This document shows, one piece after another, positions 42,078 through 47,634 of a DNA stretch of 56,236 nt; the first letter of the stretch is position 1; every line of letters starts with the position of its first letter. A program made the position numbers and the translations under genes. The stretch is from Myxococcales bacterium (GTDB lineage: Bacteria > Myxococcota_A > Polyangia > Polyangiales > Houyiibacteriaceae), in assembly GCA_019637115.1 (NCBI GenBank), contig JAHBWH010000033.1, positions 1-56,236 on the forward strand, given 5' to 3'. The notes under the pieces are model-generated. The model was not told where the DNA came from. It ran no database searches and saw only the letters and a list, made by a program, of their open reading frames with translations.

Positions 42078-42152
42078 GCTCGACGGGCGTTGCTCGCGCC
42101 TCTTGATCGGTCGCGCGGGCGACCCATGATGAGGCCCGCTGCGGGCGCCGCC

Positions 42153-42569
42153 ATGACCGACCTGTTCATCACCCCGAAGATCGTGATCCCCGCGAGCGAG
42201 CTCGCGTGGTCCGCGACGCGTTCGGGCGGGCCTGGTGGGCAGAACGTGAACAAGGTGTCGACGAAGGTCGACCTCCGCTTCGACCTCGCCGGATCGACCG
42301 CGCTCTCGGACGAGACGAAGGCGCGTGTCGCTCAGCTCGCGCGGCTCGACGCGGACGGTCGCGTGCTGATCACCTCCGAGCGCACCCGCTCGCAGCCACA
42401 GAACCTCGAGGACGCGCGCGAGAAGCTCCGCGAGCTGATCCAGCGCGCGCTGGTTGTGCCGAAGCGGCGCCGCCCGACCAAGCCCTCTAAGGGCGCGCAG
42501 CGTCGCCGGCTCGAGTCGAAGACCCGGCAGAGCGCGAAGAAGGCGACCCGCGGCCGCGTCGACTGGTGA
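42153..42569 (+). CDS. arfB: Alternative ribosome-rescue factor ArfB
   Basis: 138 residues, as expected for YaeJ/ArfB. SATRSGGPGGQNVNKVSTKV contains the GGQ motif that hydrolyses peptidyl-tRNA on stalled ribosomes; the basic tail (KRRRPTKPSKGAQRRR; KTRQSAKKAT) enters the empty mRNA channel. ATG 42153 removes an upstream non-conserved extension. Confidence 0.93.
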   Translation: MTDLFITPKIVIPASELAWSATRSGGPGGQNVNKVSTKVDLRFDLAGSTALSDETKARVAQLARLDADGRVLITSERTRSQPQNLEDAREKLRELIQRALVVPKRRRPTKPSKGAQRRRLESKTRQSAKKATRGRVDW

Positions 42570-45519: not shown

Positions 45520-45525
45520 CGTTGG

Positions 45526-45596
45526 CGCGAAAAGGGGGACTCGAACCCCCGTCTCTGGGATGGCGACCCAGTGTCCTACCGCTGGACGATCTTCGC
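45526..45596 (-). tRNA. tRNA-Gly (GCC)
   Basis: 71 nt. Acceptor GCGAAGA/TTTTCGC, D-arm GTCC-AGCGGTA-GGAC, anticodon stem CTGGG/CCCAG with loop TCGCCAT (anticodon GCC), T-arm GGGGG/CCCCC-type with TTCGAGT. Canonical. Confidence 0.93.
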
Positions 45597-45709
45597 ATGA
45601 CGACGAGACCGCAAATGGTCTCGCCGGTTGGGCAGCCGCACGAGCTCCGGGGATCCGAAGGAGCTAGCCACGCCACGGTCGGACGCTCTCAGCCAAGAGC
45701 GTCTGCCGG

Positions 45710-45795
45710 CGGAAGAGAGAGGGATCGAACCCCACGCGTGGTCGACGCGCGCACTGGTTAGCAACCAGGCCCGGACCCAGTCCGGGTTCTCTTCC
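45710..45795 (-). tRNA. tRNA-Ser (GCT), unusual D-arm
   Basis: 86 nt, class II with a long variable arm. Acceptor GGAAGAG/CTCTTCC, anticodon loop TTGCTAA (GCT), T-loop TTCGATC. The D-arm CCCGGAC-TGG-GTCCGGG is a perfect 7-bp stem with a TGG triloop instead of a 3-4-bp stem and a 7-11-nt loop. Mismatches at 27-43 and 49-65. No encoded CCA. Confidence 0.75.
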
Positions 45796-45816
45796 ATGTC
45801 GAGTCCGTTGGGCCGC

Positions 45817-45871
45817 GTCACAGGTCGCGTCGCCCCGCTCGGCTCGCGAACGGAGTGACGCGACCTGCGAC
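45817..45871. repeat. Inverted repeat
   Basis: GTCACAGGTCGCGTC (45817-45831) pairs with 45857-45871 at 14 of 15 positions around a 25-nt loop. Confidence 0.6.
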
Positions 45872-45986
45872 GCCGCGTCCACCACGCCCCTGCGCCCCTG
45901 CGCTTCACGCGACCACCGTCAGAGGCGCGACGCGGCGCGCTCTCGGCGAGCGGGCCCGTCTCTCACGTCGTCGGATGATGCGCTCC

Positions 45987-46122
45987 ACACAGGGCTCGCG
46001 GACACGCGAGCGCTCACCATACAGGGCTCGCGGACACGCGAGCGCTCACCGCACAGGGCTCGCGTGGACACACGAGCGCTCGACCCGACGAGCTCGCGTG
46101 TCCACGCGAGCTCGTCGGGTCG
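45987..46122. repeat. Cluster of palindromes
   Basis: Two 32-bp tandem units (45987-46018, 46019-46050), each with the hairpin GCTCGCG-GACA-CGCGAGC, a variant third unit (46051-46080), then a perfect 20-bp inverted repeat with a 2-nt centre (46081-46100/46103-46122). No gene. Confidence 0.85.
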
Positions 46123-46177
46123 CGGCCTGGCGCCCGCGCGATCTCGAGGATCGCGCGGGCGCGCTCGGCCGCGGGGC

Positions 46178-46681
46178 TCAGCTCAGCCACGCGCCCCAGG
46201 CGTCGGGGACCGCCGAGTCGCCGCGGCGGATGCCTCCGCCGCCCGGCAACCACGTCGGGCGCTTCGGCTCGCGCGACAAGGGCATGCCCGCCTCACGAGG
46301 CGTGCGGGCCGCCTTTCGCGTGTTGCAGTCGCGGCACGAGGTCACGATGTTCTCCCAGCACGTGCGGCCACCGCGCGAGCGCGGGAGCACGTGGTCGTAC
46401 GTCAGGTCGTGCATGGGGGCCTCCGCGCCGCAGTACTGGCAGCGGAAGCCGTCACGCAGGAAGACGTTCAAGCGCGAGAACTTGATGCGCCGTGGCGCCC
46501 TGCTCGCCCCGCGGCGGAGACGGACGATCGACGGCATGCGCATCGCCACCGAGGGCGAGCGCACGACGAGATCGTACTCCTCGACGATCTCGGCCTTGCC
46601 GATCCAGAGCATCGAGATCGCGTCCTGCCAGGGGACGATGCGTTGTGGGAGGTAACCCTTGTCGAGTACGAGCGTGCGCAT
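46178..46681 (-). CDS. HNH endonuclease family protein
   Basis: 167 residues from ATG 46681 (MRTLVLDKGYLPQRIV; AGGAG upstream). CQYCGAEAPM, TYDHVLPRSRGG, WENIVTSC and CRDCNTRKA form the HNH metal-binding fold with two CxxC knuckles. Homologues are common, often single-copy chromosomal genes in Myxococcota and Actinobacteria. It lies between tRNA-Ser and tRNA-Asp in the same direction, so it may be co-transcribed with the tRNAs. Confidence 0.88.
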   Translation of the reverse strand: MRTLVLDKGYLPQRIVPWQDAISMLWIGKAEIVEEYDLVVRSPSVAMRMPSIVRLRRGASRAPRRIKFSRLNVFLRDGFRCQYCGAEAPMHDLTYDHVLPRSRGGRTCWENIVTSCRDCNTRKAARTPREAGMPLSREPKRPTWLPGGGGIRRGDSAVPDAWGAWLS

Positions 46682-46750
46682 GGCTGTTGAGCTCCTGCGT
46701 TCGAGCCGCCATCGGCGGCGCGCGTGCCGCGGCACGCATTGAGAGGGCGA

Positions 46751-46771
46751 CCCCGGCGACCATCGCCGGGG
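46751..46771 (-). repeat. Perfect hairpin with UGG triloop (minus strand)
   Basis: Minus strand CCCCGGCGA-TGG-TCGCCGGGG: 9-bp stem, TGG loop, the same cap as in the D-arms of tRNA-Ser and tRNA-His. It lies between tRNA-Asp and the HNH gene. An RNA processing or termination role is possible. Confidence 0.6.
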
Positions 46772-46811
46772 CCGTTCACGTCGAGGGCGTCTCGAGACGT
46801 CCCCGCCGCGG

Positions 46812-46884
46812 CGCCACGTATGGGAATCGAACCCATCTCACACGGTCGACAACCGCGCTGCGTCGCCAGAGCGCATCACGTGGC
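46812..46884 (-). tRNA. tRNA-Asp (GTC)
   Basis: 73 nt. Acceptor GCCACGT/ACGTGGC with G73, D-arm TGCG-CTCTGGCGA-CGCA, anticodon loop TTGTCGA (GTC), T-arm ATGGG-TTCGATT-CCCAT. U8 is replaced by G and the D-loop is atypical. No encoded CCA. Confidence 0.8.
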
Positions 46885-46887
46885 AGG

Positions 46888-46913
46888 GCCGTCGGGCGAG
46901 CGCGCCCGACGGC
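46888..46913. terminator. Perfect 10-bp hairpin between tRNA genes
   Basis: GCCGTCGGGC/GCCCGACGGC with loop GAGCGC. No T-run. A smaller hairpin, CTCGGG-TGA-CCCGAG, lies at 46932-46946. Confidence 0.5.
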
Positions 46914-46978
46914 GAGGAATGGCGAAGGCCGCTCGGGTGACCCGAGAGGTGTGTCGCGCCGCTGAGGCTCGACGCGCG

Positions 46979-47052
46979 TGGCACTGCCTCCAGGACTCGC
47001 ACCTGGAACGCGGGCTTCGCTCGCCCGCATGATTCTCTTTCACCAAGGCAGT
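46979..47052 (-). tRNA. tRNA-like gene, non-canonical, with encoded CCA
   Basis: Acceptor ACTGCCT/AGGCAGT, then G73 and CCA; T-arm CCAGG-TGCGAGT-CCTGG; anticodon-like arm GCGGGC-GAGCGAA-GCCCGC. Position 33 would be A rather than U and the central triplet reads GCG, so the decoding identity is uncertain. The D-region (GGTGAAAGAGAATC) pairs weakly and lacks the usual GG. It may be a real atypical tRNA or a decayed one. Confidence 0.5.
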
Positions 47053-47068
47053 ACGGTAAGAGGTGGGG

Positions 47069-47142
47069 TCCATGCGGCCGGATTCGAACCGGCGGCCTCC
47101 CGCTCCCGAAACGGGCGCTCTTCCAGGCTGAGCTACACACGG
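47069..47142 (-). tRNA. tRNA-Pro (CGG)
   Basis: 74 nt. Acceptor CCGTGTG/CGCATGG with C1-G72 and A73 as usual for proline, D-arm GCTCAGCCTGGAAGAGC, anticodon loop TTCGGGA (CGG), T-arm GCCGG-TTCGAAT-CCGGC. Canonical. Confidence 0.93.
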
Positions 47143-47258
47143 TTGGTGTCGTCGGCGACGCACCATCGGTCGTCGTACGCTCGGTGGCGCAGGCGACGTG
47201 GGTCGGAGTCGTCCCGAGCGACGCGGCGTCGCCTCGGTCCGTGGCCGTCGTAGGCGAC

Positions 47259-47293
47259 GGCAGCCCACCGAAGCGTGGCTTCGGCGGGCTGCC
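47259..47293. terminator. 16-bp hairpin between tRNA-Ala and tRNA-Pro
   Basis: GGCAGCCCACCGAAGC pairs with GCTTCGGCGGGCTGCC (one non-Watson-Crick pair) around a 3-nt loop. No T-run; a processing signal or terminator. Confidence 0.5.
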
Positions 47294-47322
47294 CCCGGAA
47301 CGACAAGCACTTCTGGATTGGG

Positions 47323-47394
47323 TGGAAACGGCGGGACTCGAACCCGCAACCCCCGGCTTGCGACACCGGCGCTCGCCCATCGAGCTGCGTCCCC
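47323..47394 (-). tRNA. tRNA-Ala (CGC)
   Basis: 72 nt. Acceptor GGGGACG/CGTTTCC with the G3-U70 alanine identity pair and A73, D-arm GCTCGATGGGCGAGC, anticodon loop GTCGCAA (CGC), T-arm GCGGG-TTCGAGT-CCCGC. Canonical apart from G32. Confidence 0.92.
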
Positions 47395-47432
47395 AGATCG
47401 GGCTGCGTCACGACGCGTGCGTCGTGGCGTGG

Positions 47433-47505
47433 TGGAAACGGCGGGACTCGAACCCGCGACCTCCGGTCTGCCAGACCGGCGCTCTCCCAGTTGAGCTACG
47501 TCCCC
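47433..47505 (-). tRNA. tRNA-Ala (GGC)
   Basis: 73 nt. Same acceptor and T-arm as the neighbouring Ala gene (G3-U70, A73), D-arm GCTCAACTGGGAGAGC, anticodon loop CTGGCAG (GGC). Canonical. Confidence 0.95.
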
Positions 47506-47565
47506 GTCTCGACCGCTCACCCGTCCACGGTCGTCGACGCGACGGCCCGCGAAACGGATGGTTGG

Positions 47566-47634
47566 GGTGATCGGGGGAATCGAACCCACACCGACCCGGG
47601 TCACGACCGAGCGTACGGCCACCGTACGATCACC
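47566..47634 (-). tRNA. tRNA-His (GTG), minimal D-arm
   Basis: 69 nt without CCA; CCA is encoded at 47563-47565. An 8-bp acceptor GGTGATCG/CGATCACC includes the extra G-1:C73 pair diagnostic for histidine. The anticodon loop TCGTGAC gives GTG but has C at position 33. The D-arm is only TACGG-TGG-CCGTA, a perfect stem with a TGG triloop. T-arm GTGGG-TTCGATT-CCCCC with one mismatch. Confidence 0.75.

Follow-up and report, generated by a model that had tools for sequence, protein, structure and literature searches.

An HNH-containing island of eight tRNA genes in a Polyangiales genome, probably a reduced chromosomal relative of the tRNA arrays of large phages

An island of eight tRNA genes and one HNH endonuclease gene was identified on the minus strand of a 56,236-nucleotide stretch of DNA from a Myxococcales bacterium (the whole of this stretch is referred to here as the window), and on balance we favor reading it as a reduced chromosomal HNH-tRNA array, a second tRNA set whose homologues are found in large phages. 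Its most likely role, judged from which tRNA features are kept and which are altered, would be to supply backup tRNAs that can still be charged but evade tRNA-attacking enzymes. HNH tRNA arrays are already known from mycobacteria, Anabaena and phages, and the island is a new variant of them; HNH-centred arrays of up to about 33 tRNA genes were found in large phages and, within the order, in a dozen genomes or more. The purpose of whole second tRNA sets in phages and some bacteria is a long-open question. Because a cellular lineage has here kept an array long enough for species-specific losses to occur, selection can be read directly, in the parts that were kept (charging identity), the parts that were changed (those used by tRNA-binding enzymes) and the genes that survived (those for common codons).

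The island extends from 45526 to 47634 and contains exactly eight tRNA genes flanking an intact HNH gene, in the minus-strand order His(GTG), Ala(GGC), Ala(CGC), Pro(CGG), Arg(GCG), Asp(GTC), HNH, Ser(GCT) and Gly(GCC). The tRNA-His(GTG) gene (47565..47634) has C33 and C73, and its D-arm combines a 5-6 bp stem and a 3-nt loop. Both alanine genes keep the G3-U70 pair, tRNA-Ala(GGC) (47433..47505) within a canonical fold and tRNA-Ala(CGC) (47323..47394) with C8 and a 5-bp D-stem closed by a 5-nt loop. The fold of tRNA-Pro(CGG) (47069..47142) is canonical, tRNA-Arg(GCG) (46982..47052) carries A33, G55 and an encoded CCA, and tRNA-Asp(GTC) (46812..46884) carries G8 and G73. Beyond the HNH gene lie tRNA-Ser(GCT) (45710..45795), with an 8/4 acceptor/T branch (A8-U65), a D-stem of 6-7 bp, a 3-nt loop and a long variable arm, and tRNA-Gly(GCC) (45526..45596), with C33, G73 and a CCA encoded at 45523-45525. 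The spacing had been called irregular in a sequence-only reading of the stretch, and it does range from 16 bp up to roughly 1.0 kb, the widest gap being the one between Ser and Asp that holds the HNH gene.

Seven of the eight tRNA genes were called by ARAGORN, which missed tRNA-Ser(GCT). A custom scanner that used the acceptor, anticodon and T stems and the T-loop motif only returned, at its strict setting, ARAGORN's seven and tRNA-Ser(GCT) with no further match in the 56-kb window, and under a much looser T-loop rule just these eight again scored well on the minus strand of the island. This scanner rewards U33 and is therefore biased against finding tRNAs that lack it. The Rfam tRNA cut-off was passed by four island tRNAs in a search of the window. 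The HNH gene (46178..46681, minus strand) encodes 167 amino acids with HNH and zinc-ribbon residues intact; it matches Pfam HNH_5 with E = 3e-16 and HNH with 1.1e-13, and all residues invariant in 13 relatives are present. Its PADLOC matches were at the domain level only. The sequence-only reading had proposed an island of non-canonical tRNAs with an HNH gene, and the scanner, ARAGORN and Pfam bear this out, including the reality of the HNH gene. It had counted seven tRNAs and one tRNA-like gene on one strand; the seven were recovered, and the tRNA-like gene proved to be tRNA-Arg(GCG) with A33 and G55. Among the genes it took as canonical, Pro and Ala(GGC) have such a fold, and Gly (C33) and Ala(CGC) (C8, 5-bp D-stem) do not. 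The odd D-arms or A/C33 that it listed were seen in His, Ser and Arg(GCG); Asp has U33 and a mildly odd D-arm.

The many hairpins that had been remarked on exceed chance, since stems of at least 8 bp occur in four of the eight window spacers, as compared with 0.4 in shuffles. Spacer hairpins of at least 8 bp are enriched across nearly all arrays examined. A GC-rich hairpin cluster without strand assignment (45982..46165) lies downstream of the HNH gene, its longest stem measuring 19 bp and its hairpin units being repeated. Rfam microRNA matches at 46058-46127 were far under gathering scores and were rejected as reflecting a plain hairpin. No sigma-70-like promoter sites were found at the island, and the single terminator-like match lies within tRNA-Ser, shuffles giving the same.

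The genome (8.9 Mb in 434 contigs) contains 46 ordinary tRNAs outside the window, as inventoried by Rfam matches and ARAGORN. This canonical set includes His(GTG), Asp(GTC), Ser(GCT), Gly(GCC), Pro(CGG), Ala(CGC), Ala(GGC) and several Arg genes, and the canonical Arg(ACG) should by wobble read the codon of the island Arg(GCG). U8, U33 and TTC at the start of the T-loop are present in 46 of the 46 canonical tRNAs. In the island, by comparison, U33 is replaced in 3/8 tRNAs (Gly, Arg and His; 0/46 canonical) and U8 in 4/8 (Ser, Asp, Ala-CGC and His; 0/46 canonical), and U55 is absent in 1/8, so that at least one of these three positions is changed in six of eight island tRNAs as against none of 46 canonical ones (p = 1e-6). 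A further tRNA-like match in the same genome (C420:16748-16811; 37.8 bits) has a broken 5' acceptor strand, received no ARAGORN call and looks truncated.

Across the order, HNH orthologues in relatives sit within same-strand arrays of 4-33 tRNAs, the largest in G007. Array-bearing named genomes include Polyangium sp. 6x1, a Sorangium, a Byssovorax and a Sandaracinaceae bacterium; of the best 80 HNH matches from named genomes, the ones that fall outside the group of the window have few or no tRNAs nearby. The fuller arrays cover nearly all amino acids, and at least 20 tRNAs are present in G007, G003, G032 and Polyangium sp. 6x1. The array of the congener G001 comprises nine scanner-found tRNAs and two serine tRNAs (GGA and CGA) found with a covariance model, 11 in total. 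The island shares with array units a one-strand tRNA cluster redundant with canonical copies and an embedded HNH gene homologous to that of known arrays; its eight genes fall below the size of at least 20 tRNAs given for such units (PMC5966550), and it is therefore filed as a reduced relative and not as a full array unit.

The window array lies among apparently ordinary chromosomal genes, and no prophage is visible among the neighbours searched. These encode an RCC1-repeat protein, a 5'-3' exonuclease and an RF-1-domain protein; neither repair genes (RtcB, RNA ligase) nor a tRNA-nuclease partner turned up near the island. The RF-1-domain (ArfB-like) gene, located at 42090-42569 and so 3 kb away, was considered as part of the system and rejected, as it was not found near the arrays of relatives; an RF-1-domain gene is present in mycobacterial G1 arrays. 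Neighbouring genes differ between the window and the congener, and a conserved chromosomal site was rejected on this ground, similar ORF starts giving only a hint of one in genus g10. Some looser arrangements were also recorded. In five genus g2 loci (L083, L084, L087, L092 and L093) the HNH orthologue adjoins one ordinary tRNA-Arg(CCT) without an array, and in G023 of that genus tRNA-Arg(CCT) is flanked by two divergently oriented HNH copies. Array-type serine tRNAs lie on a different contig from the HNH locus in G010 (C33 and C38), and about 365 kb from it in G035 (8.33 Mb and 8.69 Mb), in both cases as if an array had been split.

The two congeners differ in array gene content, which shows continuing loss. 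One may ask whether the island is what remains of a tRNA array from a phage or plasmid, in decay, recognisable and out of use. The series from up to 33 tRNAs in relatives to 11 in the congener and eight in the window would suit such decay, as would the different genes lost in each congener and the different gene neighbourhoods in which the two arrays lie. Preservation of the remaining genes argues against it, and we consider it unlikely. In a DNA comparison of the window with the congener array, the tRNAs and the HNH gene align (73-96% identity over the aligned pieces), whereas the spacers, short flanks excepted, do not; differences within stems are often paired, Gly and Asp giving examples in both the anticodon stem and the T stem. 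The oddest tRNA of the island, tRNA-Arg(GCG), is 96% identical to that of the congener, and the intact HNH gene has dN 0.15 and dS 0.36 relative to the congener (dN/dS about 0.42). Identity elements are likewise kept. G3-U70 occurs in 16/18 array Ala tRNAs of bacteria against 3/275 other tRNAs, and in 59/60 array Ala tRNAs of viruses against 13/1310 others, and array discriminators match the isotype (for example, G73 in 20/20 Asp, A73 in 23/23 Pro and A73 in 32/33 Leu). Moreover, 92% of array tRNAs are closer to a same-anticodon array tRNA of another genome than to the canonical copy in the genome of the window. The sequence-only reading had named canonical His, Ser(GCT) and Asp copies elsewhere, with the island genes as decayed duplicates of them, as an outcome that would count against it: the copies do exist, and decayed duplication is rejected as the main reading on the array-to-array likeness, the congener alignment, the paired stem changes and the identity elements.

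The surviving genes are also biased toward common codons, which speaks against a decaying remnant: the window island retains tRNAs for much-used codons. The eight island anticodons read 37% of the codons in the likely genes of the window (8560 codons, from ORFs selected by GC pattern), a coverage exceeding that of random eight-sets of canonical C/G-ending codons (p = 0.0003) and of the pools of five fuller arrays (p 0.006 or lower), in a test devised after the anticodons had been seen. Such coverage is what plain codon supply would give, with the extra tRNAs enlarging the pool for the most used codons of a large GC-rich genome. For that purpose, however, duplicates of the canonical genes would suffice, the full arrays cover nearly all amino acids, and the altered U8, U33 and D-arms, the 8/4 serine tRNAs and the HNH gene would be left unexplained, which makes this account rather improbable.

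The HNH family links the island to viruses. Among the best 80 HNH matches in viral contigs of up to 529 kb (viral status as assigned by the source collection), tRNAs lie within 6 kb in 77 and at least five tRNAs in 63; some phage HNH relatives have no tRNAs nearby. Phages that were isolated or enriched agree with this. In Myxococcus phage Mx1 the HNH gene lies between two tRNA-Leu genes, with a peptidyl-tRNA hydrolase and a TROVE protein nearby, phage Rctr197k has eleven tRNAs beside its HNH gene, and Tunturi_5 combines an array with a tRNA ligase, a CCA-adding enzyme and a RimK-like protein. Isotype order relative to HNH was not significantly correlated overall between viral and bacterial arrays (rho 0.27, p = 0.25), the location of serine downstream of HNH being the sole significant positional likeness. 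As an isotype-specific oddity, strong in viral loci L178-L257, 43 of 74 array tRNA-Val lack U33. A quick tree placed the HNHs of the window's family in one supported clade lying among viral HNHs, with bacterial clades interspersed with viral ones and starred branches forcing at least four changes of the bacterial label. This intermixing, together with HNH as the sole constant gene and the differing array sites of the congeners, could also be produced by a mobile element that owes its persistence chiefly to the HNH as a homing endonuclease, the tRNAs being cargo or target. We regard this as very improbable: most alphaproteobacterial and other HNH relatives have no tRNAs nearby, so that the HNH does not need tRNAs, and homing alone does not account for selection on tRNA structure.

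In array serine tRNAs the D-stem reaches 6-7 bp and its loop is 3-4 nt long, a D-arm like that of tRNA-Sec. With a fixed geometry and sequences unselected for pairing, D-stem pairing was counted in 78/84 cells of bacterial array Ser tRNAs against 55.5 with shuffled partners, and in 266/384 of viral ones against 152.5. Position 65 is paired with 8 and unpaired with 49 in 13/15 bacterial array Ser tRNAs, 39/89 viral Ser tRNAs and 0/46 canonical tRNAs. In an alignment of 29 array tRNA-Ser, picked on the D-stem without use of the 8-65 pair, this pair was formed in all 29, by six pair types. The tRNA-Ser of the window, with its A8-U65 pair and U49-U65 mismatch, has the 12-bp acceptor branch of allo-tRNAs. 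It scored 80.7 bits against covariance model R1, of which the same sequence is a training member. Across 284 genomes of the phylum, R1 matches above 50 bits came from 12 genomes, every one belonging to the order of the window, and from one doubtful genome (54.8 bits, 7% contamination), with ordinary serine tRNAs under about 46 bits; 44 of 75 viral loci had a match above 50 bits, 13 of these being sources of training sequences. The 8-65 pair also replaces 49-65 in 4/6 array tRNA-Tyr (L074, L075, L076, L078, L089 and L101). Serine-anticodon tRNAs with an 8/4 branch and a long D-stem form a natural conserved class outside the textbook fold, which may also be useful for engineered translation. A selenocysteine identity was rejected, as neither SelA nor an above-cut-off tRNA-Sec was found in the genome; the array serine tRNAs do not have the UCA anticodon, and the window tRNA-Ser(GCT) scored 44.1 bits as tRNA-Sec, under the 47-bit cut-off. 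A non-translational or recoding use (selenocysteine-like tRNAs, aminoacyl donors or decoys), which the tRNA-Sec-like D-arms and 8/4 branch might call to mind, is hardly credible, given the same two absences and the arrays elsewhere, in which nearly every isotype is represented and anticodon and discriminator agree with it.

We return to the backup set that would evade attack. The array tRNAs retain what synthetases and codons would require (the discriminator, acceptor identity pairs and anticodon) and alter features that general tRNA-binding enzymes tend to use, namely U8, the D-arm and elbow, U33, U55 and, in Ser, the acceptor/T geometry. They would presumably be expressed and charged, and could help to keep translation going while host tRNAs are being cut or put out of action in another way, candidate causes being phage-defence anticodon nucleases, toxins of competitors and translation stress. 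In a phage the array may counter host defence, and in the bacterium it may be a retained backup, with the HNH enzyme as a putative mobility or maintenance gene. As the set (eight tRNAs, eight anticodons) is far from complete, it cannot replace all tRNAs, and the window array would help instead. Anticodon-loop changes of phage tRNAs have been predicted to evade VapC (PMC10264068), and tRNAs usable under attack have been proposed for phages (PMC10264068, PMC7824862), a similar suggestion having been made about mycobacterial arrays (PMC12803027). The pattern is also in keeping with the Anabaena operon, which translational stress induces (PMC10272220). More tentatively, and short of favoring it outright, we suggest that one bacterial order took over, probably repeatedly, a large-phage-type tRNA set including the 8/4 Ser class with its 6-bp D-stem, and kept it as an attack-resistant kit pruned to the most used codons. 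Since a full array is present in at least one named strain, Polyangium sp. 6x1, the backup idea looks testable.

Among known systems, mycobacterial array units (PMC5966550, PMC12803027) are similar in their tight tRNA clusters redundant with chromosomal genes, their one embedded HNH gene, their D-arm and anticodon-arm changes and their putative antidefence role; unlike them, the window array is chromosomal, lies in a Polyangiales-type genome and is down to eight genes. The mycobacterial plasmid array L258, whose HNH is 39% identical to that of the window, is without 8/4 long-D-stem Ser tRNAs (best R1 score 47.6 bits, 49-65 paired), and the Ser tRNAs of Nostoc, Mycolicibacterium and Tsukamurella arrays were below 50 bits in R1 or unmatched. 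The Anabaena/Nostoc trn operon likewise provides a second set of tRNAs next to an HNH gene, and in Anabaena it is useful under translational stress and induced by it (PMC10272220), but it has 26 genes, is plasmid-borne and under TrcR control, and the Ser tRNAs of the Nostoc array analysed are not 8/4. On the Acaryochloris plasmid pREC2 (L259), an HNH relative lies beside a plasmid-borne metG (methionyl-tRNA synthetase), with no tRNA found within 6 kb. The tRNA clusters of large phages (PMC7824862, PMC10264068; Mx1, Rctr197k) share the same HNH family, and array tRNAs of viral contigs share the non-U33 positions, long D-stems and 8/4 serine tRNAs; unlike these clusters, the window array has few tRNAs and lies amid apparently ordinary chromosomal genes. 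Finally, allo-tRNAs with a 12-bp acceptor branch (PMC7609411) resemble the array serine tRNAs in the 8/4 branch and the serine-type long variable arm, but most of those described have non-serine anticodons, whereas the array ones have serine anticodons, GCT in the window and GGA, CGA and TGA in its relatives.
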